Assembly: GCA_949741925.1 (NCBI GenBank)
Contig: CATJOY010000039.1
Coordinates: forward strand, 1 to 64,000
Length of the DNA stretch: 64,000 nt
Direction: 5' to 3'
DNA from: an uncultured Desulfovibrionaceae bacterium
GTDB lineage: Bacteria > Desulfobacterota > Desulfovibrionia > Desulfovibrionales > Desulfovibrionaceae
The position numbers and the translations under genes are program-made. Under the pieces are notes generated by a model. That model did no database searches, was not told the origin of the DNA, and saw only the letters and a list, made by a program, of their open reading frames with translations. Positions 6,337 to 26,124 of the stretch are shown one piece after another; the first letter of the stretch is position 1, and the number at the start of each line of letters is the position of its first letter.

Positions 6337-7332
6337 CTATTGAATGACTTCGTTAATCCAGCGATCCACATATTCCTTGCGCTTAGCCCCCTTCCATTCG
6401 GCGTCGGCCGGGAAGAAGGTATGCTTGCTCATATCAAGCACCGGGTCGGTGACCTTGGCATCCTTGTGCACAGGCACGTAGTTAATCTTTTTCTCCATCA
6501 ACAGGTTGGCAAAATCCGCGCTGGAAGACCAATCCACGAACTGCTTGGCCAGATCCATGTTCTTGGCTCCCTTGATGATGCCGATGCCGTCGATGCCGTA
6601 GGTGGTGCCCTCCTTGGGATAGGAGATAACCACGGGGTAGCCCTGCTGTTGCACATCCAGGGCATCCACCAGATAAAAGATGCCCGAGGCGGCCTGACCG
6701 CTGGCAATGGGCACGGCCCCGCCCTGCCCGCTCTTGGTATAGAGCTGGACGTTGTCGTTGAGCTTTTTCTGGTAGGCAAAGGCTTCATCTTCACCATAAC
6801 ACTTAACCAGGGCAAAAATCCGCTCGGTGGCGGTTCCGGAAGTGCGGGCATCCGCCATTTGCAGGCCGTTTTTATAGACGGGATCCAAAAGATCCTGCCA
6901 GGATTCCGGGGCGTTGATATTGTGCTGCTTGAGGAAATTGGTGTTGGTCATGAAAACCAGCGGGATCAAGCCGTAACCGATCCAGTAATTTTCAGAGGAA
7001 CGGAATTCCGGGGGCACGCCCAGGTTGGCCGGGGCATAGGCTTCAAAAAGCCCTTCCTTGACGCCCGCCTCGTAGGTATCAGCCGGGCCGCCCAGGAGGA
7101 TATCCACCTGGGGATTGCCTTTTTCGGCAATCAGCCGGGCCAGGGCCTCGCCCGAGGCAAACCTCACAAAGTTGACCTTAATGCCGGTTTTATCGGTAAA
7201 GGCCTGGGTAATCTGCGAGGCGTACTTTTCCGGCATGATGGTGTAGGCGTTCAGGGTTTTGGCTGCATACGCAGGCGCGGCCGTGAACACCGCCAGAAGA
7301 AGACCGCACAAAACCTTAGTTGCTTTGGACAT
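6337..7332 (-). CDS. periplasmic substrate-binding protein of ABC importer
   Basis: A 331-residue secreted protein with a Sec signal peptide: basic MSKATK, hydrophobic LCGLLLAVF, and likely cleavage after AYA near residue 23. The body resembles the AfuA/FbpA/PotD class of binding proteins: the early LNAYTIMPE strand, ALARLIAEKGNPQVDILLGG (residues ~65-84), PESWQDLLDP, ADARTSGTATERI and IASGQAASGIFYLVDA. Ferric-binding FbpA proteins carry adjacent Tyr ligands in the last segment; only one Tyr (GIFYLV) is present here, so ferric iron by the Tyr-pair mechanism is doubtful. Alternatives include an organophosphonate, thiamine or another small anion. GGAGG lies 9 bases before the ATG. It is the first gene of a minus-strand operon with permease, ATPase and the BPL_N protein. 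Confidence 0.9.
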   Translation of the reverse strand: MSKATKVLCGLLLAVFTAAPAYAAKTLNAYTIMPEKYASQITQAFTDKTGIKVNFVRFASGEALARLIAEKGNPQVDILLGGPADTYEAGVKEGLFEAYAPANLGVPPEFRSSENYWIGYGLIPLVFMTNTNFLKQHNINAPESWQDLLDPVYKNGLQMADARTSGTATERIFALVKCYGEDEAFAYQKKLNDNVQLYTKSGQGGAVPIASGQAASGIFYLVDALDVQQQGYPVVISYPKEGTTYGIDGIGIIKGAKNMDLAKQFVDWSSSADFANLLMEKKINYVPVHKDAKVTDPVLDMSKHTFFPADAEWKGAKRKEYVDRWINEVIQ

Positions 7333-7351
7333 GGGCGCTCGCCTCCAAAAA

Positions 7352-7372
7352 TAAGGTTAAAAATATACCTTA
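7352..7372. promoter_or_regulatory. inverted repeat at the binding-protein promoter (possible operator)
   Basis: TAAGGT at 7352-7357 and its reverse complement ACCTTA at 7367-7372 surround a 9-base A/T-rich centre. The repeat sits where transcription from the proposed minus-strand promoter would begin, a position suited to a repressor site. No known motif (for example a Fur box) is matched well. Confidence 0.4.
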
Positions 7373-7374
7373 AT

Positions 7375-7402
7375 GATATAGCTGAAATTGTACGATACGC
7401 AA
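7375..7402 (-). promoter_or_regulatory. candidate sigma-70 promoter for the ABC importer operon
   Basis: On the minus strand TTGCGT (7402-7397) and TATATC (7380-7375) are separated by 16 bases in a locally AT-rich stretch upstream of the binding-protein gene. The match is moderate (-35 4/6, -10 4/6). Confidence 0.4.
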
Positions 7403-7752
7403 GAACCATATGCCGTCGAAGGCGGTGCGCTCCCTTTCCGCCCGCGGGCTTTCCCTCCGTGAGCTGCCTCGCCCCGGGCCTTCTGCTTCACCGAACAAAT
7501 CGAATATTCACGAGTTGTTACAGGGTGGCTTGTTCCGCTCAAGGCCATAGTACGCGTATTGGAGCGCAAAAGGCAGTATTTTCCACAGCGCAAAGAAAAC
7601 CTGCCGTATTGCTCCGGCCCGGCCGGGATTCCAGGGCAGCGCCGTTCCAACCGCAGAAGGTTGCCCCCGCGTTCGTTTCAAACCGGGATATCAGGGGGCA
7701 CATACGAGGGAAAGCGCAAGTGGACGAGACCAACGCGAATACGTCAAACCCC

Positions 7753-12136: not shown

Positions 12137-13540
12137 CTATGCTTCGTTGACAAAATCCTCGGCAGCCGCTTTTAGGTGATCCGGGATGACAGCCATGCTG
12201 ATAATCAGCGGCTTAAGGAACGACCAACGAATACCGAGCTGGTACTCCTCCTCAAGATCCCGGATAGCGTCCCAGCAATTGTGGCAGGGAGCGATAACCA
12301 GTTGAGCGCCTGTGGCTATAATTTGATCGCGCTTGGTCATCAGGGCCTTGTTGCGTTCCTTCCTATAGCGGCCGATGCCGTTGAGCCCGCCGCCGCCGCC
12401 GCAACAGTAGTTGTTCTCACGGTTAGGCGTCATCTCCCGGAAATCCTCGGCAATGTAGCTCATGATTTCGCGCGTGCAACGGGCCAGGCCGTGGTTGCGC
12501 ACATAATTGCAGGAATCTTGAAGGGTTACCGGTTCCTTGATCTTTTTGGCCGGGTCGATTTTGATCCTGCCTTCACGGAGCATCTTGGCGAGCCACTGCA
12601 CATAGTGGATGTAGGGGGCAGGCGGTTTGCCGTCGGGCCTGCCCACCCAATACGGGCCTTCAACCACAGTGGCCCGGTGGGCGTGGCCACATTCGGTACC
12701 GATAACCAGTTTGGGCCGCAAACGTTCGATGGCGTCATAGACGTTCTGCACCTGAAGGCGGCAGGCCTCCCAATCGCCGGCGAACATGGCTAAAGAGGTC
12801 TGTTCCCATCCCTCACTGGCCATGGTCCAACTCTCTCCGGCCAGATGGAAAAGAATAGCTGCCTGGGCCACATCTTCGGGGTAATGCTTGGGCTCACGGG
12901 CGTTCAGGGTGTACAGCACATCCGCGCCCTTGACATCCATGGGAATTTTCAGATCGGGCCACTCTTCGCAGGTCTCTTCTTCCATCCATTCGCAGGTATC
13001 TACCCAATCCTCGGAAGTGACGTCCATCTGCGCTTTATAGACCCGGTGCATGCCTGAACCGATCTTGAGTTCCCAGGGCACAAAGCCCATGGCAAAAAGG
13101 ATGCCGCGCAAATAGCTGAACATAACCCCGGTATCAATGCCGTGGGGGCAGTACGTGCCGCAGCGGTTGCAGCAGGTGCAGCGGCCCCAGGCGTAATCCA
13201 TGGCCCGACGCATAAAGGCGTTATCAACCCTGCCCTTGCGCCTGATCATCTCGCCAAGGGTGGATTGAATCTTGAAAGCCGGCACTTGCTCTGGATCGCG
13301 CTCATTGACGCGGTAAAAGTGGCAGCTCTCGGCGCACATGCCGCAGCGGGCGCAAATCTCCAGCCAGGTGCGGGTGCGGGATTTGCAAGTTTTTTTGAGC
13401 ATGGACCAGAGCAAGTCGCTATCAACATCCAGCTCTTCCATCTCTTTGTAATATACGACGCCGCCCTTATCGGCCAGCAGGGTCTTGAGGGCTTCCTCGG
13501 TTTTTATGGGCTCACGGTTGCATAAGCTGCCTTGAGGCAT
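12137..13540 (-). CDS. hmcF: Hmc complex subunit F, cytoplasmic Fe-S protein
   Basis: A 467-residue protein of the HdrD/DsrK-like family on the cytoplasmic face of the Hmc complex. Two [4Fe-4S] motifs lie near the N-terminus: [13 protein letters not shown] (about 63-75) and [14 protein letters not shown] (about 117-130). The C-terminal half carries two CCG-type segments: a Cys in [10 protein letters not shown] with [12 protein letters not shown], and the CHNCWDAI motif. This Cys-rich domain in HdrB/D binds a noncubane cluster used for disulfide chemistry. AGGAG lies 7 bases before the ATG. It is the last gene of hmcABCDEF and would take electrons from the membrane subunits. A DsrK assignment was considered, but the neighbours fit Hmc. 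Confidence 0.93.
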
Positions 13541-13570
13541 GGCGTGCTCCTTCTCAACAACGTAAAAATC

Positions 13571-14260
13571 TTACCAGGGGAAGCTGGTCCCCCTGTAATC
13601 GCCGCCGCGTTTGATGCTGTAATCCATGCCGAGCTGGGCGCGGGACATAAAAAACAACGCGATATGCGATAGCTTGGTAAAGGGGGCCAGAATAAGCAGC
13701 GCCTCGGCACTGACCATATGCAGCAGCAGCCAGTAATCATAGCCGGGAAAATGCCTGGCAGCCAAGAAACCGCTGAGCAAGGGCAGCGTGGCCAGCCCCA
13801 ACACGGCGTAATCGCGCCAGGTGCTCAGATGGCGCACTTCAGGGAGCGCAATGCGGCGGGCCAGAATCAGGCCCGCGCCGCCGATGGCGCACAGGGTGAA
13901 GAAATCCGCCGCCGCCGGAGGCAGATGGGGCAACCAAAACCCGAGCAGGTTCTCAGCAATAACCGCATGACCGGCTACCAGCAATGGCAGCACAATGACC
14001 CCGAAATGAAAGGCAAAAAAGCCTACTGTAAAAAAGGGGGATTTGCGCCAGCCATGGGTGCCGAAAGGAATCAGCCAGCGGTAAATGGATTGCGCCGCTC
14101 CCTTAAGGCCCTGCTTGAAATGGGGAATATAGGCCACGCGGTCCAGCTTCCAATCCAGGCCCTGTACATACAACAGCGCCCTGGCGGCCAAACCGCCAAA
14201 AAAGACCAGCAGAGCAACGATCAGGCCGGGGCCGGTCAGGAACATATACAAATCGCGCAT
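13571..14260 (-). CDS. hmcE: Hmc complex subunit E, integral membrane haem b-type protein
   Basis: A 229-residue membrane protein similar to DsrM/NarI-type cytochrome b subunits. Hydrophobic segments include LIVALLVFFGGLAARALLY near the N-terminus, FFAFHFGVIVLPLLVAG (~80-96, with a candidate haem His), FFTLCAIGGAGLILARR and YWLLLHMVSAEALLILAPF (~165-183, with another His). It relays electrons between the periplasmic/membrane part and HmcF. AAGGAG is 8 bases before the ATG at 14260 and only 2 bases before the in-frame ATG at 14266, so 14260 is preferred. It lies between hmcD and hmcF. Confidence 0.92.
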   Translation of the reverse strand: MRDLYMFLTGPGLIVALLVFFGGLAARALLYVQGLDWKLDRVAYIPHFKQGLKGAAQSIYRWLIPFGTHGWRKSPFFTVGFFAFHFGVIVLPLLVAGHAVIAENLLGFWLPHLPPAAADFFTLCAIGGAGLILARRIALPEVRHLSTWRDYAVLGLATLPLLSGFLAARHFPGYDYWLLLHMVSAEALLILAPFTKLSHIALFFMSRAQLGMDYSIKRGGDYRGTSFPW

Positions 14261-14333
14261 GGGCATTTCTCCTTAGGGAAGCGGAGACGCTCCAGGGCCG
14301 AACGACTGCGGCAACGGCACGTCCGGAACAGAG

Positions 14334-14480
14334 CTAAAACTTCCTGATATCCTCATCCCGGCCGCTGAGAAAGACCCAAAAGCAGGCCAAGGCAACAAGC
14401 CCCACCCCCATAAGAATGTAGGTGATGCTCTTGGTGTGGAGCATGAAATCCTGAAGCGAAGTAAAAACTTCGGGCTGCAT
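14334..14480 (-). CDS. hmcD: Hmc complex subunit D, small membrane protein
   Basis: A 48-residue protein beginning MQPEVFTSLQDF with one hydrophobic span (ITYILMGVGLVALACFWVF, residues ~20-38) and the charged tail SGRDEDIRKF. Size and position match the very small HmcD of Desulfovibrio. The ATG at 14480 follows GAGGT with a 5-base gap. A longer frame upstream to 14555 overlaps hmcC and lacks such a signal. It is a structural component of the membrane part of the complex; its precise role is not known. Confidence 0.88.
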   Translation of the reverse strand: MQPEVFTSLQDFMLHTKSITYILMGVGLVALACFWVFLSGRDEDIRKF

Positions 14481-14499
14481 AACCGTACCTCGTTGCGCC

Positions 14500-15744
14500 T
14501 CAGTGGGCGTCTTTATACTCCGGGTGCTCGTGGAGCATCGGCAGGAAATGGGCAAAAATCCGGTATGCGGTGATGATCATGGTCACGATGAACACCGAAA
14601 GGCCGATTTCCATAATGCTCGGGAAATAGCGCTCGTCAGCGGGCAACTGCCAGTTGAAGGCGATCAGGCAAACATTGAGACGGTTGAGCACGATGCCCAA
14701 GACAGCCATCAGCGAGGCCGCGCGAATCAGGCCGAAGCGCTTTTCCCTGACCCCAAAGGCGTAAAGGAGCATGGGCAGGGCTACAAAGCCCAGGAGTTCC
14801 ACCAGATAAAGCAGGCCATAGCCGGTGCCGAGATAGGCCCAGTTGTTGTTCATAGCCAGATCGAAAAGACGCATGCAGAGATACCCGGCCATCACAAAGG
14901 ACGAGGCCTTGGCAAAGCCCAGAGCAATCTCACGGCTGGAATGCAGGTGCGCTTCATCCATCTTGTGGTGCAAAAAGCGGTGGGCCAAGCCCCCCTCAAA
15001 GAGAACCATGGACATGCCCGCGAACATCGAAGACACAAAGAAAAAGACCGGCAAGAAGCTGGAATACCACAAAGGGTGAAGCTTGCCGGGGCTGGTCAGA
15101 AAGAGCGCCCCCAAAGAGGATTGGTGCATGGTGGAGAGGATGACGCCCAAGATAGTCAGCGGCAGAGTCAGTTTGACAACAAAGGAACGTATGGTTTTCA
15201 GGCCGAGCCATTCCAGGCTCGCCGGGGTCCATTCCACCAGCAACACGCAGAGATAGATAAAGACGCACAGGCCAACTTCAAAAAGCACCGAGGTTGTGCC
15301 TTGAGAAACAAAAATAGGATAGACCAGCCGCCAGGGTTGGCCTACATCGTAATGCAGGGCCACAACAACGAAAAGGTAGCCCAAAAAGGCCGTGGTGATG
15401 GCCGGGCGCACCGCTCCATGGTAGCGTTTGAGGCCAAAGAGATAACAGGCGGCTGACGTAGTGTAGCCGCCGGCGGCCAGGGCTACCCCGCAGAGCAGAT
15501 CAAAGCCGATCCAGATGCCCCAGGGATTGACGTTATCCAGGTTGCTGATGCCGCCGATGCCCAGGGTGAACCGCAGCAGCGTAAGGAGCGCCCCCATGGC
15601 CAATATGGCCGCGGTCACGATATTGGCCGGCGTTCTGGGGATAGAAAGAAGAAGTTCCTTGAACGAAGGAAGCCGGGAACGCCACAGGGCCGCCTGGTTC
15701 CGGGCCGAATCCAGGGTTTCTCGGATAACGCTCGGGTATTGCAT
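14500..15744 (-). CDS. hmcC: Hmc complex subunit C, NrfD/PsrC-like membrane protein
   Basis: A 414-residue polytopic protein of the NrfD/PsrC family with about ten hydrophobic segments, from TILAMGALLTLLRF near residue 45 to IGLSVFIVTMIITAYRIF near the C-terminus. Family members bind menaquinone and pair with a four-cluster ferredoxin subunit, here HmcB. The ATG at 15744 shares its A with the stop of hmcB (TGATG), so the two are translationally coupled. A TTG one codon earlier is possible but less likely. It is probably the quinone-interacting or proton-path subunit linking periplasmic HmcA/B to HmcD/E/F. Confidence 0.93.
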   Translation of the reverse strand: MQYPSVIRETLDSARNQAALWRSRLPSFKELLLSIPRTPANIVTAAILAMGALLTLLRFTLGIGGISNLDNVNPWGIWIGFDLLCGVALAAGGYTTSAACYLFGLKRYHGAVRPAITTAFLGYLFVVVALHYDVGQPWRLVYPIFVSQGTTSVLFEVGLCVFIYLCVLLVEWTPASLEWLGLKTIRSFVVKLTLPLTILGVILSTMHQSSLGALFLTSPGKLHPLWYSSFLPVFFFVSSMFAGMSMVLFEGGLAHRFLHHKMDEAHLHSSREIALGFAKASSFVMAGYLCMRLFDLAMNNNWAYLGTGYGLLYLVELLGFVALPMLLYAFGVREKRFGLIRAASLMAVLGIVLNRLNVCLIAFNWQLPADERYFPSIMEIGLSVFIVTMIITAYRIFAHFLPMLHEHPEYKDAH

Positions 15745-16856
15745 CAACGCTCCCCTTTGCCGTCAGGTTCGTGAGCGGCGGCCTCTGTTGCGGCCGTCTT
15801 GGCGGCTTTGGCCTCGGCTTCAGCAAGGGCCTTGGCAACGGCAGCGTCTTTTTCTTGAGCCGCCTTGGCCAAAGCGCTTTCCTTCTCTTTGGCGGCCTTG
15901 GCCAGGGCCTTTTTCAGTTCCTCAGCGGCCTTGCTTTCGGCCTCGGATACGGCCTTGGCAACAGCGGCAGCCTCTTCTTCAGCCGCTATTCTATCCCGAC
16001 GCTTGCTGATGGCGTACGCGCCGGTCAACAGCACCGGCCACAAAGCGGCGACCATGGGCACGGCGCCCAAAGCGCCGGAGGTCAGTTCAGGAATGGAGGT
16101 TGTATCCAGTTCCGGCTGCCCCAGTTCGGCATGGGGCACTGGAGAGAGATACAACCAACTGGTGCCGCCCACTTCCGTTTCGCCGTAAATATGATCTTCG
16201 TAGAGGCCGGGCGTCTTGCGGATACGCTCGCGGGCCAGATCCAAAAGTTCCGTCCGCTTGCCAAAAACCAGAGCGCCGGTGGGGCAGATCTCCACACACC
16301 CCGGGAGTTTCCCCTCAGCCAAACGTGGAGCGCACAGGGTGCACTTATGGACCAAGGGATTGAGCACCTTGTGGTAGTCATAAGCAGGTATGGTAAAGGG
16401 ACAGGCGATCATGCAATAACGGCAACCCACGCATAGGCTGGGATCATACACCACCGGCCCCTCGGGCGTCTTTTTGAAAGCCCGAACAAAACAGGCTGAA
16501 GCGCAGGCCGGTTCCAGGCAGTGGTTGCACTGCATTTTACGGAAAATAGGTTTGCCCGCATTGCGGTCATACCGATTGACCACGGTGTACGCATCAACCT
16601 CGGGGCGTCGTTTGGCGTCGAATACGGCCGCATCCCCAAGATCCTTCGGAGGCGGCAGATTGTTGACCCTAGCGCAGGCCGCCTCGCAACGACGGCAGCC
16701 GATGCATAAGGTGGAATCATGCAGGACGCCTACAGCGTTCCTATCAGGTTCGACCCTGGCTCCGGAAGCGGCAACGGCTTTACGCGCGCCCATGGAAACA
16801 GCAGTAGCCGCGCCGCCGGTAATACCCAAAAGCTGAAGAAATTTTCTCCGGTTCAT
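15744..16856 (-). CDS. hmcB: Hmc complex subunit B, Tat-exported four-cluster Fe-S protein
   Basis: A 370-residue protein that begins MNRRKFLQLLGITGG, a Tat-type signal in which RRKFL replaces RRxFL, so it faces the periplasm. Four [4Fe-4S] motifs follow: CIGCRRCEAAC (~50), CNHCLEPACASAC (~112), CVGCRYCMIAC (~146) and CTLCAPRLAEGKLPGCVEIC (~174). A single membrane segment (VAALWPVLLTGAYAIS) near residue 275 anchors it. The last ~85 residues are an uninterrupted Ala/Lys/Glu-rich helix that is predicted coiled coil and would lie on the cytoplasmic side. It transfers electrons between HmcA haems and HmcC. The start at 16856 is chosen for the Tat motif; the longer upstream frame overlaps hmcA. 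Confidence 0.94.
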   Translation of the reverse strand: MNRRKFLQLLGITGGAATAVSMGARKAVAASGARVEPDRNAVGVLHDSTLCIGCRRCEAACARVNNLPPPKDLGDAAVFDAKRRPEVDAYTVVNRYDRNAGKPIFRKMQCNHCLEPACASACFVRAFKKTPEGPVVYDPSLCVGCRYCMIACPFTIPAYDYHKVLNPLVHKCTLCAPRLAEGKLPGCVEICPTGALVFGKRTELLDLARERIRKTPGLYEDHIYGETEVGGTSWLYLSPVPHAELGQPELDTTSIPELTSGALGAVPMVAALWPVLLTGAYAISKRRDRIAAEEEAAAVAKAVSEAESKAAEELKKALAKAAKEKESALAKAAQEKDAAVAKALAEAEAKAAKTAATEAAAHEPDGKGER

Positions 16857-16866
16857 GCGTCTCTCC

Positions 16867-18735
16867 TCAGGAAGCCGGGCCGATAGCGGCGTGGCAGGCC
16901 TCGCAATCAGTATCGGCGGGCGCGCTGATATCCATACGCTGGTGGCAGCCCATGCACTGCTGGTGGTAGGCGACCTTGAGCGGCGGCAGCTTGCTCGGCC
17001 GGGCCGTCCTCTCCGGTTGCGGGAGGAAGCCGCCCCGGCTGGGCGAAGCCTTGAACGGCTCTTCAGCATGGCAGGAGGCGCAGGCCGGAGGATTGGCCGA
17101 AAGCGGGCTGTTATGGTGGCAGGAGGCGCAGAGCTGCGACGCCCCGGCCGCGCCGGGCACGCCTGTAACGCGTTGCGCGTGCAGCGGCCCGAAGCCCGGA
17201 GCCTTTTCCGCAATCCCCTTGGCCAAGGCTTCGATTATGGCCCGGTGCGGCATGATCGCAGGCGCGTAGGCCTGGGCCAGGCTGCCTATCTCCACGGTTT
17301 CCGGAACCGCGGTAAGATCAGGCATCTTGGGTTGCTCCGCTCTGGCTTTAACCAAATCCGCAGCCACGCCGGCTTCGGATCGGCCCGGCGCCAAGGGCTG
17401 CTTGAGCGCGGTATGGCAGAACGAACACTCCGGCGATGCCGCCACCGGAAGCGTGGCATGACAGCCGGCGCATTCCGTCTCCCGAACAGCCGTTTGCGCA
17501 TGGCAGCCAACACAGGAGGCAGTGGATGCAGGATCATGCAGAGCCGCCATTAAGGAAAGGCTGCTTTTTACAACAAAGGGCTCCGGGGAAGCCTCTTCGC
17601 CTCCATCACGGGGGTTGGCAGGGCTTTCGTGGCACGAAGAACAAGAAGCCAACGTCATATGGTGGCAACTGGCGCAATCGGCAACGGCCTGCTCATGCAG
17701 GGCGTGGTTAAAGGCTACCGGGCTGATCCCCGCGGCAGGGCCTTCAGCGCTGGAAATTCGGGAGCCGGCCGGGTCATCCGCCGCCAGCAAGACGGCGTCG
17801 GGCTGCCCCACCAGAAGTCTAGGCCTTGTGGCCGGTCTGGAATAAGCGGCCTTACGGGCTTCATCATGGCAGCCAGCGCACTCCACCGGACCTGTGGCCT
17901 TAGAAGCAGCGGCCAGGGAAAGATGACAGGGCAGGCAGCTTTCATGGGCAACCTGGTCAAAGCCCACGCCGGCAAAGGGAACGCCGGGTTCGGGCCCTGC
18001 TTGGTGACAAGAGCGGCAGGAATCAGCCGCCAGTTCGGGCGAAGAAAACTGTTCCACCGGATGGTGGCAACCAGCGCAGACCGGAGAGAGCCCTTGGGAA
18101 AGGCTGTCGCCCTGCGCTCTATATTCGGCCGCCTCAAGCATTACCGGCGAATCGATATGGCGGAAGTGCAATCCCGGGTCCAGCCCGCCGTCGGTCCGGG
18201 CTTCCTGAGCCCAGCCCCGGGGAGCGCCGGTATGGCAACTCCGGCATTCCGCCTCTGTGGGTCCGGAGGAAAGCCCCTTCTTTTTCATCCCTTCATGGCA
18301 ACTAAAACAGCCTTCATGAAAAAGGCGTTGCATTGCAGCAACGGAGGCATCGGCCGGAGCATCAGCTAACCCCTTGAACGCAAAGGAAATATGCTTGCCG
18401 CTGCCGCCGGGCTCGGCGGGTTCGGAAGTGGCCGGAACGCCCTCGGCAAAATCATTATGGCAGGAAGCGCAGCTCCCCCCAACCGCAAGCACGGCCTTGG
18501 TGTGGCGATCATGGGCAAAGGGAACCGGAGGAAGCTCCGGAGCATCGGGAGCAGCCACATCCAACACAATGAGATCCGCCTGCTGCCGGGCTTCTCCGGG
18601 AGCGCTTCCGGGCCTGGCCTGAGCTGCAAGGCCCAGCCCGGCGCCCACCAGAATGAGGGCCAGGACAAAGGCCGGCATAATTCCGGAAATCCGGGATCGT
18701 TTTCCTCTAACGCAACAGGGGGGATGTGTGTTCAT
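16867..18735 (-). CDS. hmcA: Hmc complex subunit A, 16-haem high-molecular-weight cytochrome c
   Basis: A 622-residue periplasmic cytochrome with exactly sixteen CxxCH haem-binding motifs by my count, from CASCHND (about residue 85) to CEACHAA at the C-terminus; several are followed by a second His (CAGCHH, CASCHH). Sixteen haems identify the Desulfovibrio HmcA, which accepts electrons from tetrahaem cytochrome c3 and periplasmic hydrogenase. A signal peptide/anchor is visible (IMPAFVLALILVGAGLGLAAQA, residues ~19-40). The ATG at 18735 gives a sensible basic N-region, but its Shine-Dalgarno sequence is weak. An in-frame start at 18795 cannot be excluded. hmcB follows after 10 bases. Confidence 0.95.
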   Translation of the reverse strand: MNTHPPCCVRGKRSRISGIMPAFVLALILVGAGLGLAAQARPGSAPGEARQQADLIVLDVAAPDAPELPPVPFAHDRHTKAVLAVGGSCASCHNDFAEGVPATSEPAEPGGSGKHISFAFKGLADAPADASVAAMQRLFHEGCFSCHEGMKKKGLSSGPTEAECRSCHTGAPRGWAQEARTDGGLDPGLHFRHIDSPVMLEAAEYRAQGDSLSQGLSPVCAGCHHPVEQFSSPELAADSCRSCHQAGPEPGVPFAGVGFDQVAHESCLPCHLSLAAASKATGPVECAGCHDEARKAAYSRPATRPRLLVGQPDAVLLAADDPAGSRISSAEGPAAGISPVAFNHALHEQAVADCASCHHMTLASCSSCHESPANPRDGGEEASPEPFVVKSSLSLMAALHDPASTASCVGCHAQTAVRETECAGCHATLPVAASPECSFCHTALKQPLAPGRSEAGVAADLVKARAEQPKMPDLTAVPETVEIGSLAQAYAPAIMPHRAIIEALAKGIAEKAPGFGPLHAQRVTGVPGAAGASQLCASCHHNSPLSANPPACASCHAEEPFKASPSRGGFLPQPERTARPSKLPPLKVAYHQQCMGCHQRMDISAPADTDCEACHAAIGPAS

Positions 18736-18815
18736 GAATGGTCCCGAGCGTTCAGCTTCGTTTACGCGGCATCCCGCAGCAACGGTACACAACACCTAAA
18801 GGACGGATGTTGAAA

Positions 18816-19096: not shown

Positions 19097-19444
19097 TCAG
19101 GCATGCCCTCTGCTCTCTCCAAGCAACAGCAGGTCAGGAGCGGAAAAGGCGGCCAGCCGCACAACATGCAAATAAAAATGCGCTTCTCCAGGGCGGCAGA
19201 GAGGGCAACCATCAGAAAGCAGCAGGCAGCGGGCGTCAAAAACGGCGTCGTCTATGCCTGCGGCCTTGACCAGAGAGCGCGTTTTTCCCTGCTCCCAGAC
19301 AACAGGCTTGCCGCAGTAGCGGCATTCCACATAGAGAAGATCCAGATCATACGGTTCGCGCGCGCCCTGCCCCGGGTCGGGGCTCAAGCCACCGCTTTCC
19401 AGGGAGTACGAGAACTGTGTATCCGGAATTTTTCCCATATACAT
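19097..19444 (-). CDS. small Cys-rich (zinc-ribbon-like) protein of unknown function
   Basis: A 115-residue soluble protein beginning MYMGKIPDTQF. It has a CRYCGKPVVW knuckle near residue 51 and a CPLC pair near residue 91 (after LLLSDG), four cysteines that could bind one zinc. The sequence between them holds an AVFDARCLLL segment with one more Cys. AGGAGG lies 5 bases before the ATG at 19444, which decides the start over the ATG two codons later and over upstream in-frame ATGs. It is transcribed toward hmcA but ends 361 bases before it. No family is recognised. Confidence 0.6.
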   Translation of the reverse strand: MYMGKIPDTQFSYSLESGGLSPDPGQGAREPYDLDLLYVECRYCGKPVVWEQGKTRSLVKAAGIDDAVFDARCLLLSDGCPLCRPGEAHFYLHVVRLAAFSAPDLLLLGESRGHA

Positions 19445-20051
19445 GCGTGCCTCCTGCATGAATACAGTGGGTTTTAGAAAATATTTTTCTTTTATATGCC
19501 CGTTTGGCTTAAGAAACAAGCCCCGTCTTTGCCGCGCCGTTGTTTTGCGTTTCCGAAAAATTGGGGATATTCCATGTCCGGGAAAAGGAGGATTTCCGCC
19601 TCGTGCCGCCAGAAGACAAGGCGGCCATTCTCTCTTTTCCTGTTCTGCGGCAACGGCCGCGGGCGGCAGCGCCGCGCGACCTCAAACAAGGGGAGGCCTC
19701 TCCCCGCGGCAGAACTCGGCTCAAGAGCGAGGGCAAGAAGAACCATTTGAGGGCTGATCGGACCCCGGCAGGACATGATTCCCCCTTGTCTCCACGATGC
19801 CGACCGGGGGGCTCTCCCTCGGCAGCATGGAGGCAGCATGAGGTGTCTTCTTCTCTTGGCGCTGCTGACGGTCTCCCCCCTCGGCAGCATGAGGGCAGCC
19901 CCCCCCGGAGGCGCGCGCTCATTTCAAAAGAAGACCATTTCAGCGCTGCCGGGCATTGACCTTGGCGGAAAACTCTGTATCAGATTCCTTGACGCCCGTT
20001 ATTCCAGCCGGGCAGAGTCCTAATTTTTTTATGAAAAGGCGAGGAGCGCGC
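19445..20051. other. 607-base region with little coding evidence
   Basis: Apart from a possible 61-codon ORF at 19838, no convincing gene is visible. The right half contains short direct repeats: CCTCGGCAGCATG occurs at about 19817 and 19879, and GGCAGCATG is repeated twice around 19823-19840. No terminator with a clean T-run was noticed. Confidence 0.3.
19838..20023 (+). CDS. possible 61-residue exported peptide
   Basis: An ATG preceded by GGAGG at 4 bases opens a 61-codon frame. It starts MRCLLLLALLTVSPLGS, which looks like a secretion signal with possible cleavage after SMRA, and ends 28 bases before the gene at 20052. Against it, the signal overlaps local direct repeats and the rest has no recognisable features. 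It could be a leader peptide or chance. Confidence 0.25.
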   Translation: MRCLLLLALLTVSPLGSMRAAPPGGARSFQKKTISALPGIDLGGKLCIRFLDARYSSRAES

Positions 20052-22121
20052 ATGAGCCCGAACACCCCCGGCACGTTGTCCCAGGAGCCCACCCGGACAG
20101 CAAAGGCCCTGGCCCTGGTTTCCGTTCTGCTGGCAGCCTTGACCCTGTTGCTGCTGGTCATTTCTCTTTCCGGTCTGAAAACAAAACCCGCCTGGCAAAA
20201 GGCCCTGCCAACCTCCGCGCTTTCCGCGAATCAGGCGGGGGCGGCTCTGCTCAAGGCCGGCAATCTTTTTGAGGCTGAGGTCCGCCCCCGGTTGATCAAG
20301 GCTGGGCTTGGCTCTCCCGCGGATATGGCGAATCTCCTGGGCGGCGATTCCCCCTCCCTCTCCCAACGCCTCACCGAAAAGTTGTGGACGTTGCGGGCCT
20401 TTCCCGAAGCCCAAGCCATCCTGCTGCAGGGGTTGTTGGAAACCGAACGCGACCCGCGCTACCGGCAGGAACGTTTTTTCGGCATGTACAACGCCCTGGC
20501 TGATGTGGCCCAAGCGATCCTGCCCGAGAGCGATGCTCTTCCTCCTCGGCAGGACAACAGCAAAGCAGACAGCGCCAACCCTTTTGCCGCTTTTACGGTT
20601 GATCCGGCGCTGAAAAACAAGGCCGCGGCCCGGCCTGAACCGGCCTCAGAGGCGGAGCGCCTTGCAGCCATCCGGAAAGACCAGGCCGACCAGGCCCTGA
20701 GAACTGCTCTGGCACGGCGCTTTTTGGCCATTCTGGCTGACGACATGCAGCGGGCTGAAGAGGAGCGGCTGACCCGCCCCGAACCACAAACCGACGCGGA
20801 GAAACTCGCCTATGTGGAATTCGTATATCCTGTCTGGACCCGCAACGATATTTATCGTGATGACGCCGGCCGGGCCCTGGCAACGCTCTATGCCCAGCAA
20901 GATAAACCCTACTTCGCCCCGCTGGCTTTTGCCTTTCTGGAAAGCGGAGAAGGCACGCCCGAAGCCCGGTACCGGATCATTCCGCTGATGGTCAAAAAAC
21001 CGGGTCTGCCCCTGGCTGAATATCTTGCCTGGTCCCGTTTTAAAAGCGATCTGGACGGCATCACCCGTTGCCTCGGCACAGAGCCCGCTTATCTCGGTTA
21101 CCTGATCGGCTGCTGCGATGATTTCGGCACGCTCTTGCAACGGCATCTCAAGGAACGCGGCATACTCCTTCTCGGCGGCAAGAGCGGGCCGGGCATTGCC
21201 GTGGAAAAAACCGACGCGCCCTCCCTGGAAGGCCATGAGGGAGAGAGCGGCTTATATCTCTTGGCCGATATGCGCCACGCCTTGGAAAATGCCCCCGGGG
21301 AAGAGCTGCGCTATGATCTTTCCCGCGCCTATCCTGTTTTTGCAAACTCCCCGTTGCGGCATTTGGAAAACCAGCCGCTTCTCTTGCCTCTGGACCTCAA
21401 GCGTCCTGAAGATGCCGCCCTGTTCGCCTGGTATCGGGATGAAGCCGCCGGGGAGGGCAGGCTTTTGCTCTTTGCCGCTGAGGGGTCGCCTGAAGCCGTT
21501 GCCGGGCACCTAGCCGACCTGCATCTGATGTGGTGGCCCCAATCCCCCGAAGAGCAGGCGCTGTCAGGCAACGACAAGCCCGATCTTTCCCTGATGCATA
21601 TCGAGAGCGGCCCGTTCATGCTGGGCGTTCTGCCCAACATTAAAGGCGAGGCGGCCTCCCGGTTTCTCGGCCCGATTCGGGCCCTCTGGTTTCTCCAGCA
21701 GGGAGCCGAGCAGGATCAATGGTATGAAGCCCGGCCGGAACCGGCTCTGCCGCGTCTCTCCTCTCGGGCCGCCACGCCGGCTTTCCTGATTTCCCGGGAT
21801 ATTGACGAGGCCTTTGACCTCACCACGGCAGACCGCTTTGTAATCGAGCTCTCCCGTCGCCTGTTACAGGAAAACCCTGATCCGGCCATGACCCGCAAGC
21901 AGGCCTTTGATTCTGTAAAAGCGTTGGATCAGGAACTCTACGACTGGGGCCTGGAAAAGCCCGAACACCGCGAAGAAGCCATACTCCTGTTCTGGCGTTT
22001 TCAGAAGGATGACGCGGCCACGGAGACCCTCCGAGGCATTTTGGCCCAACAAGAACTCTCCGTCCGCAAGCGCCTGCACGAGGCGCGCCGCGCCCTGGGC
22101 ATAATGGAGGAGAAGCAATGA
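20052..22121 (+). CDS. uncharacterised membrane-anchored protein, first of a tandem related pair
   Basis: The product has 689 residues. A hydrophobic span near residues 19-38 (ALALVSVLLAALTLLLLVIS) is a signal anchor; the remainder is soluble and probably periplasmic. No catalytic motif or known domain is recognised. The region around residues 170-240 is rich in Ala, Arg and Glu and helical. The C-terminal ~250 residues align by eye with the next protein: LLLFAAEGSPEAVAGHL matches ILLLASPAGPQEVAAHL, and ASRFLGPIRALWF matches AARLMGPITALWR. GAGGAG lies 5 bases before the ATG at 20052; an ATG 12 codons upstream is less well supported. It overlaps the next gene by 4 bases (ATGA), so the two products are made together. 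Confidence 0.75.
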   Translation: MSPNTPGTLSQEPTRTAKALALVSVLLAALTLLLLVISLSGLKTKPAWQKALPTSALSANQAGAALLKAGNLFEAEVRPRLIKAGLGSPADMANLLGGDSPSLSQRLTEKLWTLRAFPEAQAILLQGLLETERDPRYRQERFFGMYNALADVAQAILPESDALPPRQDNSKADSANPFAAFTVDPALKNKAAARPEPASEAERLAAIRKDQADQALRTALARRFLAILADDMQRAEEERLTRPEPQTDAEKLAYVEFVYPVWTRNDIYRDDAGRALATLYAQQDKPYFAPLAFAFLESGEGTPEARYRIIPLMVKKPGLPLAEYLAWSRFKSDLDGITRCLGTEPAYLGYLIGCCDDFGTLLQRHLKERGILLLGGKSGPGIAVEKTDAPSLEGHEGESGLYLLADMRHALENAPGEELRYDLSRAYPVFANSPLRHLENQPLLLPLDLKRPEDAALFAWYRDEAAGEGRLLLFAAEGSPEAVAGHLADLHLMWWPQSPEEQALSGNDKPDLSLMHIESGPFMLGVLPNIKGEAASRFLGPIRALWFLQQGAEQDQWYEARPEPALPRLSSRAATPAFLISRDIDEAFDLTTADRFVIELSRRLLQENPDPAMTRKQAFDSVKALDQELYDWGLEKPEHREEAILLFWRFQKDDAATETLRGILAQQELSVRKRLHEARRALGIMEEKQ

Positions 22122-24112
22122 TCATGATCCGGCCGCATACCGCCCTCTGTTTTCCCGCCGCGCGGCCTTGCCGCGCCCTGGCAGCCCTAGTCGCGCTCGC
22201 TGCCTTGATGAGCCTGGTTTGCTCGATCCTCACAGCCCCGCTCCCGGCGGCGGCAGCGCCGCAAAAAACGCCTCTCTCCCAGCAGGAGGCGGAAAGCCGC
22301 CTGGCCGCAATGCTCGCGGAACAAGCTCAGTTCATCGCAGAGCTTGAACCCATCCTGGCCGAAGCCGGTTTTGAGGCCTCGCCCTTTCTTCCGCCTTGGC
22401 AGCGGCAGGCCCACCAAGCCGCCGAGATCCTCTGGCGGCTCTCGCCTCTGCCGGACCGTTTGCAAGCCGAAAAAGCCGCCCTCCTGGAGGGGAGCGTCCC
22501 CCCAGCCCAGCGGATGCAGGCCCTTGAACAGCGCATCAAATTTTATGACGATATTGCCCGGCAGATGATTACCTTCATGATTTCCGAGAACCCCCAAGCA
22601 TACCGGCGGTATCGCGACAGACCGAAAGGGCTGGCCGGAAGCATGGCCGTGCAGGAGATCTTGGAGCCCTATTTCTTGTTTGTCGCCGCCAATGGCGAGG
22701 CTGTGGAGGCCATACAGCATGCTCTCGGGAATAAAGAAGGACTCACCCTGCTTTGGGCTATGAAAGACGCCCCGGAAGCGCGCAACCTGACTATGGAGAT
22801 CCTGCGCGTCAACGATCTCTCCCCGGTCCGCAAGCGGGCCCTGATCGAGCTTGCCCTCCAAGATATCGAGGCGGCCCGGGAGCGCCTCGCTGATCTGCCG
22901 CGTCTGTTGGCCCTGGAACAGGGGTATGATGATATCCTCTCCTCAGCGGACGATGCCGTTGCCTTTTCGGTCTCCTCGTTGCTGCCCCAAGCCGCTGAGC
23001 GCTTTGCGGAGCTGAAAAAGATTCCCTTAGCCACCAAACCAATGAGCAAACCGGCCGCCTCCCTGACCGTAACCAAACGAGAGAAGCTCTTCTCCGGCCG
23101 GGAACTGGAGGCAATGGAAGAGCTAGAGGCAAAGGCCTTTTCAATCGGCGCGCTCGGTAAGATGGGCCTCCAGCTTTCCTTGCTTCGGCCCGGAGAAACC
23201 CTGTACGCCCTCTCCTGGGGCACCCGGCCCCAAGGGGGCATTCCCCTGTTCACCGGAACGCCCCTGGCGGAAATTGCCGAAGGGGGCCCTTTCCTGATGC
23301 CCTTTACCAAGGAAAATAACTGGATTTTCCTTGCCGCCGGGAACTTTCATGAACCCATACTGCTCCTGGCTTCGCCCGCCGGGCCCCAGGAGGTAGCCGC
23401 CCATCTCGGCAGCCTTGGCGTTGTGTATTCCGACCGGGGCATTTATCTTTTTGATATCTCCAAAACACCGCAAACATCTCGAGAAGATATCGTAGATACC
23501 CCCGGCCCCCGGCCCCGGCTCACTAACGTTGCCTACCCCGGATTTTTGCCGGAACTGCTCCTCATGGCGGACGCCAAGGGAGCGGCCAGGCTTATGGGCC
23601 CTATAACCGCCTTGTGGCGTCCGCTGGGCCCCTGGGGCCGCCCTCAGAACGGAACCAACGGCTGGCAGGAAATCCGCCATGCCCCCCGGGCCGACGCCAA
23701 AGGGCTGGCGCTGGGAGAAGCGCCCTTGCTCTCGCTTTCGCCGCATGATCTGGAACAATTACTGAAAAATGGCGAAGCTGTGATCCGCGAGGGTCTGGCT
23801 GACGCGCTCCTGGAATATAACGACCTTTCCAAGGAAGAAAGCCGCGCCCGAGCCGACGCCGCCATGGCCATAGCCCGGGGCCTGGGCTACCGGCGGCCTG
23901 AACGGTTATCTATAGTGGCCTTTTCCCTCGCCCGCTTGGCGGATTCCCCTCAGGATATGGCGACTCTCGGAGCCATCCTCCTCAATGGCAGCCTGGCGCC
24001 TGACGAGCGTTACCTACGCTTTTCCCAGGAGAGCTACATGCTCCAGGAAAAACGGAACGAGGCCCTGCGGCAAGAACAGCGGGAACACAAGGGAAGCAGG
24101 CCGCAGGAATAA
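22118..24112 (+). CDS. uncharacterised exported protein, second of a tandem related pair
   Basis: A 664-residue protein with an N-terminal signal sequence: residues ~17-47 include LAALVALAALMSLVC and end AAAAPQ, with likely cleavage after PAAAA. The Cys in that hydrophobic stretch does not sit in a good lipobox. The N-terminal half is helical with repeated Glu/Ala-rich stretches. The C-terminal half shares the PxEVAxHLxxL and AARLMGPITALW blocks with the preceding gene, and both end in a helical region with matching hydrophobic spacing. The start overlaps the preceding stop (ATGA), indicating translational coupling. It is probably a periplasmic partner of the anchored paralogue. The function is not known. 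Confidence 0.75.
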   Translation: MIMIRPHTALCFPAARPCRALAALVALAALMSLVCSILTAPLPAAAAPQKTPLSQQEAESRLAAMLAEQAQFIAELEPILAEAGFEASPFLPPWQRQAHQAAEILWRLSPLPDRLQAEKAALLEGSVPPAQRMQALEQRIKFYDDIARQMITFMISENPQAYRRYRDRPKGLAGSMAVQEILEPYFLFVAANGEAVEAIQHALGNKEGLTLLWAMKDAPEARNLTMEILRVNDLSPVRKRALIELALQDIEAARERLADLPRLLALEQGYDDILSSADDAVAFSVSSLLPQAAERFAELKKIPLATKPMSKPAASLTVTKREKLFSGRELEAMEELEAKAFSIGALGKMGLQLSLLRPGETLYALSWGTRPQGGIPLFTGTPLAEIAEGGPFLMPFTKENNWIFLAAGNFHEPILLLASPAGPQEVAAHLGSLGVVYSDRGIYLFDISKTPQTSREDIVDTPGPRPRLTNVAYPGFLPELLLMADAKGAARLMGPITALWRPLGPWGRPQNGTNGWQEIRHAPRADAKGLALGEAPLLSLSPHDLEQLLKNGEAVIREGLADALLEYNDLSKEESRARADAAMAIARGLGYRRPERLSIVAFSLARLADSPQDMATLGAILLNGSLAPDERYLRFSQESYMLQEKRNEALRQEQREHKGSRPQE

Positions 24113-24267
24113 AAAGAGGCCTTGCGGAAAACGCCTTCCGCAGACCGGCAGCCGCTTGCCGTTGCGTCCTTTTTCCCGGGCGTGGCGGCAGGCGGCTTTT
24201 GGTTTTCGGGAAGCCCGCGGCCCGGATTTTACTTTGCTGCCGCGGGCTTTGCTGGTACAGACAAGAC

Positions 24268-25458
24268 ATGGCTCCGAGCGCATCAGAACCAACGCCTTCC
24301 TCACTGCGCAGCGCCCTTCCGGCGGTGCTGTTTGTGGCTGCGGTCTTTTTCATCAACTATACGGATCGGGCCATTCTCGGCCCCCTCCTGGTGCATATGG
24401 AAACGGCTCTCGGGCTGGATCATGTGCAGGCCTCTTCACTTTTGCTCTCTCTTTCCACCGGCATGAGTATTGGGTTGCTGTTTTCCGGAATCGCCGCCTC
24501 GCTCATCCGCCCCCGGCTGCTGATATCCTTCTCTGCCATGGGGTGCGGCATTATGCTGCTGCTCCTGACCCGCGCGGCCTCACTGGCCGAAGCCCGCTTG
24601 CTGATCCTGGGGCTGGGGCTGGCAGCGGGCTTTTATCTCACGGCAGCCATGGCCACGCTGGGAAGCCTGGTCAAAAGCGAAGACTGGAGCCGCACGATTG
24701 CCGTGCATGAGCTTGCTCCCAACATCAGTTTCATCGTCGCGCCCCTGCTTGCGGAATCCGCCGCGGCCCTGTGGGGGTGGCAAAGCGGCTTTTTTATTAT
24801 GGGCTGCCTCTCTCTGGCCGCGGGATTCCTGTTTTTGCTCTTCGGCAAAGGCGGCTTCCGCAAAGCGGATCGACCTTCGGCCTCGGGTCTTCTCCTGGCG
24901 TTAAGGCGTCCGGTCTTCTGGGGCTTTACCTGGCTGTTCGGCCTGTGTGTGGCCGGTGAATTCGCTCCCTTCAGCATCCTGCCCCTCTCCCTCACTGCGG
25001 AGCAGCACCTCAGCAGCGAAACCGCCTCCCGCCTCCTTGCCTTCTCCCGCCTGGCTTCCCCTTTCGTTGTCGTTGCCGGAGGCTGGGCCACTGCGCGCCT
25101 CGGCGCGACCACCTGCCTGATGCTTTTTTTACTCGTCCACGGTCTGGCCCTGTGCGCTCTGGCCCTGCCCGCCCCTATGGTCGGCCTTCCCGGCCTTTTC
25201 GCAGCCATGCTCGGCCAGGCCATGGCTACGGCCTTTGTCTTCCCACCGCTTTTTACCCTTCTGGCTCAGTCCTTTCCCCTTGGTCAACAGCCTCTTTTAC
25301 TCTCCATCGCCGTGCCCCTCGGCACCTGTTTCGGCACCGGCTTTATCCCCTTGCTCCTGGGGGCCAGCGGCCAGTACGCCAGTTTCTCCCTTGGCTACCT
25401 CGTCTTTGGTCTGGTCTGTCTCGCTACGCTCCCTTTTCTACGGGCAATTTCTCGGTAA
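24268..25458 (+). CDS. major facilitator superfamily transporter
   Basis: A 396-residue membrane protein with about twelve hydrophobic segments. TM1 contains VLFVAAVFFINYTDRAILG, with an Asp-Arg pair typical of MFS proteins; a central basic loop near residues 190-210 (FGKGGFRKADRPSA) divides the two six-helix halves. No strong Shine-Dalgarno sequence precedes the ATG at 24268; an in-frame ATG at 24199 would add an unlikely Arg/Gly-rich leader. Symporter or exporter activity for an organic anion or drug is possible; the substrate cannot be read. It stands alone on its transcript as far as can be seen. Confidence 0.85.
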   Translation: MAPSASEPTPSSLRSALPAVLFVAAVFFINYTDRAILGPLLVHMETALGLDHVQASSLLLSLSTGMSIGLLFSGIAASLIRPRLLISFSAMGCGIMLLLLTRAASLAEARLLILGLGLAAGFYLTAAMATLGSLVKSEDWSRTIAVHELAPNISFIVAPLLAESAAALWGWQSGFFIMGCLSLAAGFLFLLFGKGGFRKADRPSASGLLLALRRPVFWGFTWLFGLCVAGEFAPFSILPLSLTAEQHLSSETASRLLAFSRLASPFVVVAGGWATARLGATTCLMLFLLVHGLALCALALPAPMVGLPGLFAAMLGQAMATAFVFPPLFTLLAQSFPLGQQPLLLSIAVPLGTCFGTGFIPLLLGASGQYASFSLGYLVFGLVCLATLPFLRAISR

Positions 25459-25611
25459 CTTTCCTTTACGAAAGGCTGCATTTTCCCCTGATCCGAGAAA
25501 TTGAAAAAGGTACGACGGCCCGAGGCAACCATGTCCCTTTCCGTGTCGAAGGCGTCTTGCTTTGAACCGCGGGCTGTTCTATATAGGGCGGATAACGGAG
25601 AGGTGGACGAT

Positions 25612-26124
25612 ATGGAGTGCCAAGCGCCGGAGAACACACGAACGGTAACCATCACCCGCAAGGAGATGGTGCGGGTCTCTTTGGCCGTTTCCAGAAAATC
25701 CCTTATCGCCGTCCCCGTGATCATGGTCGCCCTTTTTTTCGGCATACAGCTTCTTTATGGCGGCCCTGACCTGCTGGCCAGCCCTGAATATTGGCTTCCC
25801 TATCTGCCGCTCATTATGCTTCTCGTGCTCCTCTTCCTGCTTGCCGCCTATCGCGCTATTCTCAAACGGGCGAAGCAATGCAAAGCCCTGGACAGCACCT
25901 TCCGCATCGGGTTTGACGACACTGTTTTTTTTGAAGAATGCGCTTATTTCACCTCGATCCTCCGCTGGGAATATCTGCAGGGCTGGCAGGAGCTTTCCGA
26001 GCACATCCTCCTCTATGACGGCAGCCATGAATATCTCGTGCCCAAAGCGCCTTGGAGCGAGGCGGAATGTGAAGCCATGCGCGCTTGCCTGCGCGCCAAA
26101 GCCACCCCGGAGAAGACGCTGTGA
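25612..26124 (+). CDS. YcxB-like membrane protein
   Basis: A 170-residue protein beginning MECQAPENTRT. Two closely spaced membrane segments are visible (SLIAVPVIMVALFFGIQLLY, ~29-48, and YLPLIMLLVLLFLLAAY, ~62-78). The C-terminal cytoplasmic domain has the YcxB-type pattern: FRIGFDDTVFFEE, then a Trp-containing helix and a strand (HILLYDGSHEYLVPK) ending in a PxxxW/F turn. GGAGAGG lies 8 bases before the ATG at 25612. The next gene starts with GTG overlapping this stop, suggesting one operon with the permease pair. YcxB-domain proteins have no established function. Confidence 0.7.
   Translation: MECQAPENTRTVTITRKEMVRVSLAVSRKSLIAVPVIMVALFFGIQLLYGGPDLLASPEYWLPYLPLIMLLVLLFLLAAYRAILKRAKQCKALDSTFRIGFDDTVFFEECAYFTSILRWEYLQGWQELSEHILLYDGSHEYLVPKAPWSEAECEAMRACLRAKATPEKTL

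Follow-up and report, generated by a model that had tools for sequence, protein, structure and literature searches.

What are the two large proteins encoded by a pair of overlapping genes in this DNA, and what might they do once outside the cytoplasm? The window, i.e. the whole 64,000-nucleotide stretch analysed here, comprises the first 64 kb of contig C39 of an uncultured Desulfovibrionaceae bacterium (genome G000, 2.79 Mb), and it carries gene A (20052–22121, 689 residues) and gene B (22118–24112, 664 residues); positions are those of the window, on the plus strand unless stated otherwise. A preliminary description, made from the sequence, had treated A and B as paralogous envelope proteins of no recognized family. 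Open reading frame (ORF), Pfam, HHalign and Foldseek analyses, together with homologues of A in G011, G008, G257, G003 and G049 (a fragment) and of B in G011, G008, G049 and G257, instead identify both as candidate exported proteins with the DUF4123/Tap fold, a family of adaptors of type VI secretion systems (T6SS). The explanation that we favour combines a DUF4123/Tap branch with export and T6SS independence, and is rather likely as a whole; an adaptor role is the leading, though unproven, idea of what the pair does.

Family membership and fold of A and B

The Pfam DUF4123 profile (PF13503) matches B at residues 372–438 with 27.8 bits, above the curated cut-off of 25.8, and matches A at residues 401–497 below that cut-off (16.6 bits). 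The same cut-off is exceeded by the B homologues of G011, G008 and G049 and by the A-like protein of G003; B of G257 falls short with 19.7 bits and A of G257 gives no match. By profile score, the A/B set reaches the cut-off as a group, though not in every member. Alignment of family profiles (HHalign) with eight T6SS-type DUF4123 adaptors, all from the same order, gives E-values of 4.2e-9 for A and 1.6e-9 for B over 232–256 columns that include the helical C-lobe, the lowest E-value among shuffled controls being 0.06. One of these adaptors (L037) was included as a vgrG neighbour, by sequence motif, and the DUF4123 adaptor beside vgrG in G248, which the profile of B (A2) recovers, is itself one of the eight and hence not an independent member. 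AlphaFold2 models built from five sequences each reach a mean predicted local distance difference test (pLDDT) score of 68 for A (mostly 65–90 in the C-terminal half) and 61 for B. Against the whole PDB, the sole Foldseek match of either model at E <0.001 is Tap3 (9R8G chain B), with an E-value of 4e-8, probability 1.00 and a TM-score of 0.65 on Tap3 for A, and 5.9e-4, 1.00 and 0.36, respectively, for B. This match takes in both lobes, and in the predicted models A and B both display the two-lobed Tap fold.

In a 2026 structural paper, Tap3 is described as a horseshoe-like two-domain fold, novel and without significant PDB relatives, and all DUF4123 proteins characterized so far are given as adaptors that join VgrG to effectors (PMC12909789). 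According to a further paper, VgrG is bound at its C-terminus by the DUF4123 lobe of known Taps, and the effector by their C-lobe (PMC13133936). The preliminary description, which recognized no family and had named beforehand a profile match to a characterized family as grounds for giving that up, is refuted as regards homology, as all three of Pfam, HHalign and Foldseek place both proteins in DUF4123/Tap, the family of T6SS adaptors. That A and B might form a wholly new family, unrelated to anything described, could still draw on the lack of an NCBIfam match, the lack of a phmmer match to the PDB for B and the single Pfam match; against the three concordant methods we regard it as extremely improbable and have dropped it, and homology of A and B to the DUF4123 superfamily is close to certain.

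Paralogy, gene overlap and predicted export

The paralogy claimed in the preliminary description is clear. BLASTP aligns the C-terminal part only (29% identity, E 1e-6), and HHalign of the two family alignments gives a probability of 99.7 and an E-value of 3.8e-26 over 539 columns, spanning from just behind the signals to nearly the C-terminal end, with a score of 211 versus a maximum of 25 in 40 column-shuffled controls. By alignment, A and B are paralogues over nearly their whole length, beyond the C-terminus and far beyond chance. The shared C-terminal blocks quoted earlier are present in both proteins and are the HL-helix block (LLLFAAEGSPEAVAGHL in A, ILLLASPAGPQEVAAHL in B) and the f.GPi..lW block (RFLGPIRALW in A, RLMGPITALW in B) of the DUF4123 domain. 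In a maximum-likelihood tree of the Tap module, ten exported proteins occupy one side of a branch that separates them from the adaptors with support of 100/99. The A proteins (100/99) and the B proteins (85/77) each form a group of their own in the same tree, and therefore the split between A and B, a single old duplication, most likely predates the genera concerned.

Two large overlapping ORFs, with A predicted to be signal-anchored and B to be exported, are found as first described. The stop and start codons overlap as ATGA (22118–22121), an arrangement that recurs in another genus (G257), and 1 to about 11 bases lie between the two genes in G011 and G008. For gene A the ORF finder favours a TTG farther upstream (19956), but the ATG at 20052 follows a purine-rich GAGGAG site and agrees with the homologues. 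A contains a single strong N-terminal hydrophobic segment (residues 16–39, 20097–20168; mean hydropathy 3.0 over 19 residues, helical in the model) that would serve as a membrane anchor or uncleaved signal, and B begins with a predicted Sec signal peptide (residues 1–46, 22118–22255), likely cleaved after AAA and accompanied by similar signals in four homologues. No later hydrophobic segment above 1.2 was found in either protein by the hydropathy scan. Of the exported-type proteins, the nine that are complete at the N-terminus all have a signal or membrane segment there, and none of eight adaptors does; that of A is anchor-like in the window and in G008, and resembles a cleavable signal in G257 and G003. 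By eye, the cysteines in the signal of B are not part of a lipobox where the hydrophobic stretch ends, and B was rejected as a lipoprotein. Export of A and B across the inner membrane is, on these segments, very probable, and the cytoplasmic location that is a feature of T6SS effector adaptors (Tap/TEC) is, judged from sequence, not shared by the pair.

Domain layout and distinctive features

About 300 residues precede the Tap module in A and B, and fewer in the A-like protein of G003. The alpha/beta DUF4123 lobe, in which the shared blocks lie, extends over residues ∼401–549 of A (21252–21698; Pfam, HHalign and Foldseek to Tap3) and ∼357–502 of B (23186–23623; Pfam match above), followed by the helical C-lobe at residues ∼573–685 of A (21768–22106) and ∼535–640 of B (23720–24037), as delimited by HHalign, the models and repeat comparison and, for A, by Foldseek. 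A helical-hairpin motif of ∼45 residues, LW.lr..Pe....lL.....p..R, is found in two N-terminal copies and once more in the C-lobe as its last hairpin (copy C in A). By repeat comparison, copies N1 and N2 of A lie at residues ∼101–160 (20352–20531) and ∼268–330 (20853–21041), both with approximate limits, and those of B fall in an N-terminal helical region at residues ∼100–262 (22415–22903) that is also seen in the model. Fourteen of 15 segment comparisons exceed the shuffled maximum (15 shuffles each), and the comparison of N1 with N2 in A does not. Within the helical region of B, the profile of a three-helix stretch (residues ∼205–262, 22730–22903) finds PDB entries with modules of staphylococcal protein A, the best constructs at E-values of 1e-10 to 5e-5. 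A relationship to protein A was rejected, as the match is short, absent with the profile of A and weak by fold; it is probably convergence.

The A proteins are further distinguished by a cysteine pair (C340 and C354/355, residues 340–355, 21069–21116) that is kept in all five that cover the region, with a spacing of 14 residues in three and 17 in two. It may possibly form a disulphide, as expected in an oxidising compartment; no conserved cysteine was found among the B proteins compared. The RFyDP motif, which is common but not universal among the adaptors aligned, is gone in A (LMHIESGP instead), and some B homologues retain only its D/N-P.

Distribution and relation to type VI secretion

Among 348 genomes of the order, six carry A and/or B proper. 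Both are present in G000, in G011 of the same genus, and in G008 and G257, and the pair is accordingly retained beyond this genome; G049 has B together with a partial A at the edge of a contig, and in G003 (L018 488–2110) B is missing and a single A-like exported DUF4123 protein, shorter in its N-terminal half, is present. Among 395 genomes sampled from the phylum there were no further carriers, and a scan of genome contigs returned G011 and G003 again and no others. Four weak matches were rejected as extra exported pairs: those in G248 and G191 are ordinary T6SS DUF4123 proteins, that in G186 falls in a T6SS locus, and that in G102 adjoins a large repeat protein gene on a contig without the pair. 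A phage or defence origin was likewise rejected: the scan of viral contigs returned no relatives, PADLOC models gave no match, and no viral fold matched at E 0.001.

The genome that bears most directly on T6SS is G008 (95% complete, three contigs), in which the pair is present and TssC, TssK and VgrG were not detected, nor any DUF4123 protein at E 1e-6. Because this one near-complete genome has the pair without detected T6SS genes, we consider independence of T6SS probable; presence of a T6SS fails as a requirement for the pair, though G000 and G003 have one. The window genome contains two copies of TssC, one of TssK and a weak match to VgrG, with A and B as its only DUF4123 proteins; G003, besides its T6SS genes, has a vgrG with an ordinary DUF4123 gene next to it. 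By TssC search, T6SS is present in 31 of 119 genomes of the family. No TssK or VgrG was found in G011, G049 and G257, genomes too incomplete to count. No vgrG, PAAR or effector gene was seen beside the pair, either in the surroundings within the window or on L016, L017, L035, L018 and L006, the last three being short contigs. The open-access literature, mostly at the level of titles and abstracts, yielded no exported or T6SS-independent DUF4123 protein. The notion of an undescribed envelope system survives in part: this literature and G008 speak for it, and the family itself is a characterized one.

Gene neighbourhood

A terminator-like hairpin of 20 pairs (24150–24197), found by consensus scan only, lies directly 3′ of B, and because of it A and B appear to form their own transcription unit in the window. 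It is followed by a major facilitator superfamily (MFS) transporter gene (24199–25458), seen in this position in no other carrier, a gene for a YcxB-like small membrane protein (25501–26124; Pfam PF14317, 26.7 bits), dppB (26085) and dppC (27347). In G011, G008 and G049, dppB lies downstream of the pair, separated from it by one small gene at most, and dppC comes next in G008. In G008 and G049 that small gene is the YcxB-like one, for which the space beside the pair in G011 is too small; the YcxB-like protein is a possible third component of the A/B system, judged from gene order and from a divergence as fast as that of A and B. Identities between G008 and G049 are 50% for B, 49% for the YcxB-like protein and 91% for DppB, and between the window and G011 they are 77% for DppB, 45% for A and 30% for B. 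Across the family dppB and dppC (and recN where the contig reaches it) are conserved behind other upstream genes and without the pair, and in G257 the pair adjoins a thioesterase gene, not dpp.

Other genes were noted in passing. On L017 of G008 an exported protein with weak tetratricopeptide repeat matches is encoded directly upstream of A (6930–7730), with no counterpart seen in the window, where a small cysteine-rich protein, possibly a zinc ribbon and without a Pfam match, is encoded upstream of A on the minus strand (19097–19519). Multihaem cytochrome c, iron–sulphur, NrfD and CCG genes at 12137–18795 (minus strand) resemble an Hmc-like transmembrane redox complex, and an Omp85-family (BamA/TamA-like) gene is directly followed by a TamB gene at 53972–60678.

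Proposed role and alternatives

We propose that A and B represent an exported DUF4123/Tap branch that left T6SS. The pair would be co-translated and then carried across the inner membrane, where, in the window genome and G008, A would probably be tethered via its N-terminal helix and B freed into the periplasm. Each mature protein would consist of a helical N-terminal half around two hairpin copies, followed by the two-lobed Tap module, and the Tap modules of both would join into a heteromeric adaptor in the periplasm, holding a protein client as cytoplasmic Taps hold VgrG and effector, the extra hairpins widening the binding surface. Periplasmic location, contact between A and B and a protein-binding role are inferences; of the adaptor role itself, the most economical account of a Tap that is exported, duplicated and enlarged, we are somewhat less than evenly persuaded. 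It is plausible that A and B would be two halves of a periplasmic complex, as had been suggested.

Several observations weigh against this proposal. The window genome itself has T6SS genes, and the remaining carriers of the pair, G000 and G008 aside, are 54–74% complete, such that T6SS absence there means little. The RFyDP hallmark has disappeared from A and largely from B, and the way in which Taps bind clients may thus not apply to the pair. The models derive from five sequences with mean pLDDT values of 68 and 61, the superposition of B is poor (TM-score 0.36), and Foldseek scores residues as well as shape, which means that the fold and sequence evidence are not independent. Export, too, is deduced from the N-terminal sequences alone.

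The co-occurrence with T6SS genes in the window genome and G003, and the T6SS function of the DUF4123 proteins characterized so far (PMC12909789), would also suit a T6SS accessory in the producer's own periplasm, e.g. one guarding against or sorting its own effectors. With T6SS in 31 of 119 family genomes, however, such co-occurrence is unremarkable, and with the pair present in G008 without detectable TssC, TssK or VgrG, and no copy seen next to a vgrG, PAAR or effector gene, we regard this role as unlikely. The downstream genes raise a different possibility, in which A and B are accessory binding proteins of a DppBC-type ATP-binding cassette transporter and present peptides or solutes to the downstream permease. 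The synteny on which it depends, with dppB behind the pair in G011, G008 and G049 (dppC next in G008) and both genes behind the MFS and YcxB-like genes in the window, is confined to two genera (g1 and g9), is broken in the window by the hairpin and the MFS gene, and is absent in G257. Because the dpp cluster is conserved without the pair, the terminator-like hairpin follows B and G257 offers another context, we take dpp to be a neighbour rather than a partner. The divergence of A and B from G011 beside a 77% identical DppB, and the Tap fold, which is not a known solute-binding fold, argue the same way, making this operon partnership, which we rejected, a little less likely still.

A further alternative looks to attack by others: as an exported decoy or orphan immunity, the pair would capture the injected VgrG or effectors of rivals in the periplasm and so blunt T6SS attack. 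A Tap-like fold would then be located where injected spikes arrive, the pair is present in G008, in which no T6SS was detected, and A, B and the YcxB-like gene diverge fast beside slow neighbours, as in the G008 and G049 identities above. Fast divergence fits weak constraint equally well, however, the key adaptor motif is lost, and there is no PADLOC match, though PADLOC covers anti-phage defence and not such immunity; we rate the decoy as quite improbable. If true, it would be an adaptor fold put to defensive use. Under the proposal of an exported branch that left T6SS, an enlarged and duplicated form in a genome without detected T6SS would make the fold a general protein-gripping device, beyond a secretion part. 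A DUF4123 match alone is insufficient to predict T6SS function or nearby effectors.

Comparison with known adaptors

The closest structural counterpart is Tap3 of Pseudomonas putida, the adaptor of effector Tke5, which has the DUF4123 alpha/beta lobe and the helical C-lobe in common with A over ∼311 columns. Tap3 is a T6SS adaptor of ∼300 residues encoded with vgrG3 and tke5, whereas A and B have a signal, ∼300 extra N-terminal residues and no adjacent vgrG. The Tap/TEC (PF13503) adaptors of the order and of the Desulfovibrionaceae, e.g. that at L036 9555–10811 beside vgrG, are homologous to A and B across the whole adaptor (HHalign E ∼1e-9), from which the pair differs by its separate tree branch (100/99), its predicted export, the loss of RFyDP in A and the reduction to D/N-P in some B proteins. 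Finally, Tla1 (PA3293) of Pseudomonas aeruginosa resembles A and B in its N-terminal DUF4123 lobe and helical C-terminal domain (PMC13133936), but it is predicted to be cytoplasmic, binds VgrG4a and Tle1, and is encoded in a wholly different genetic context.

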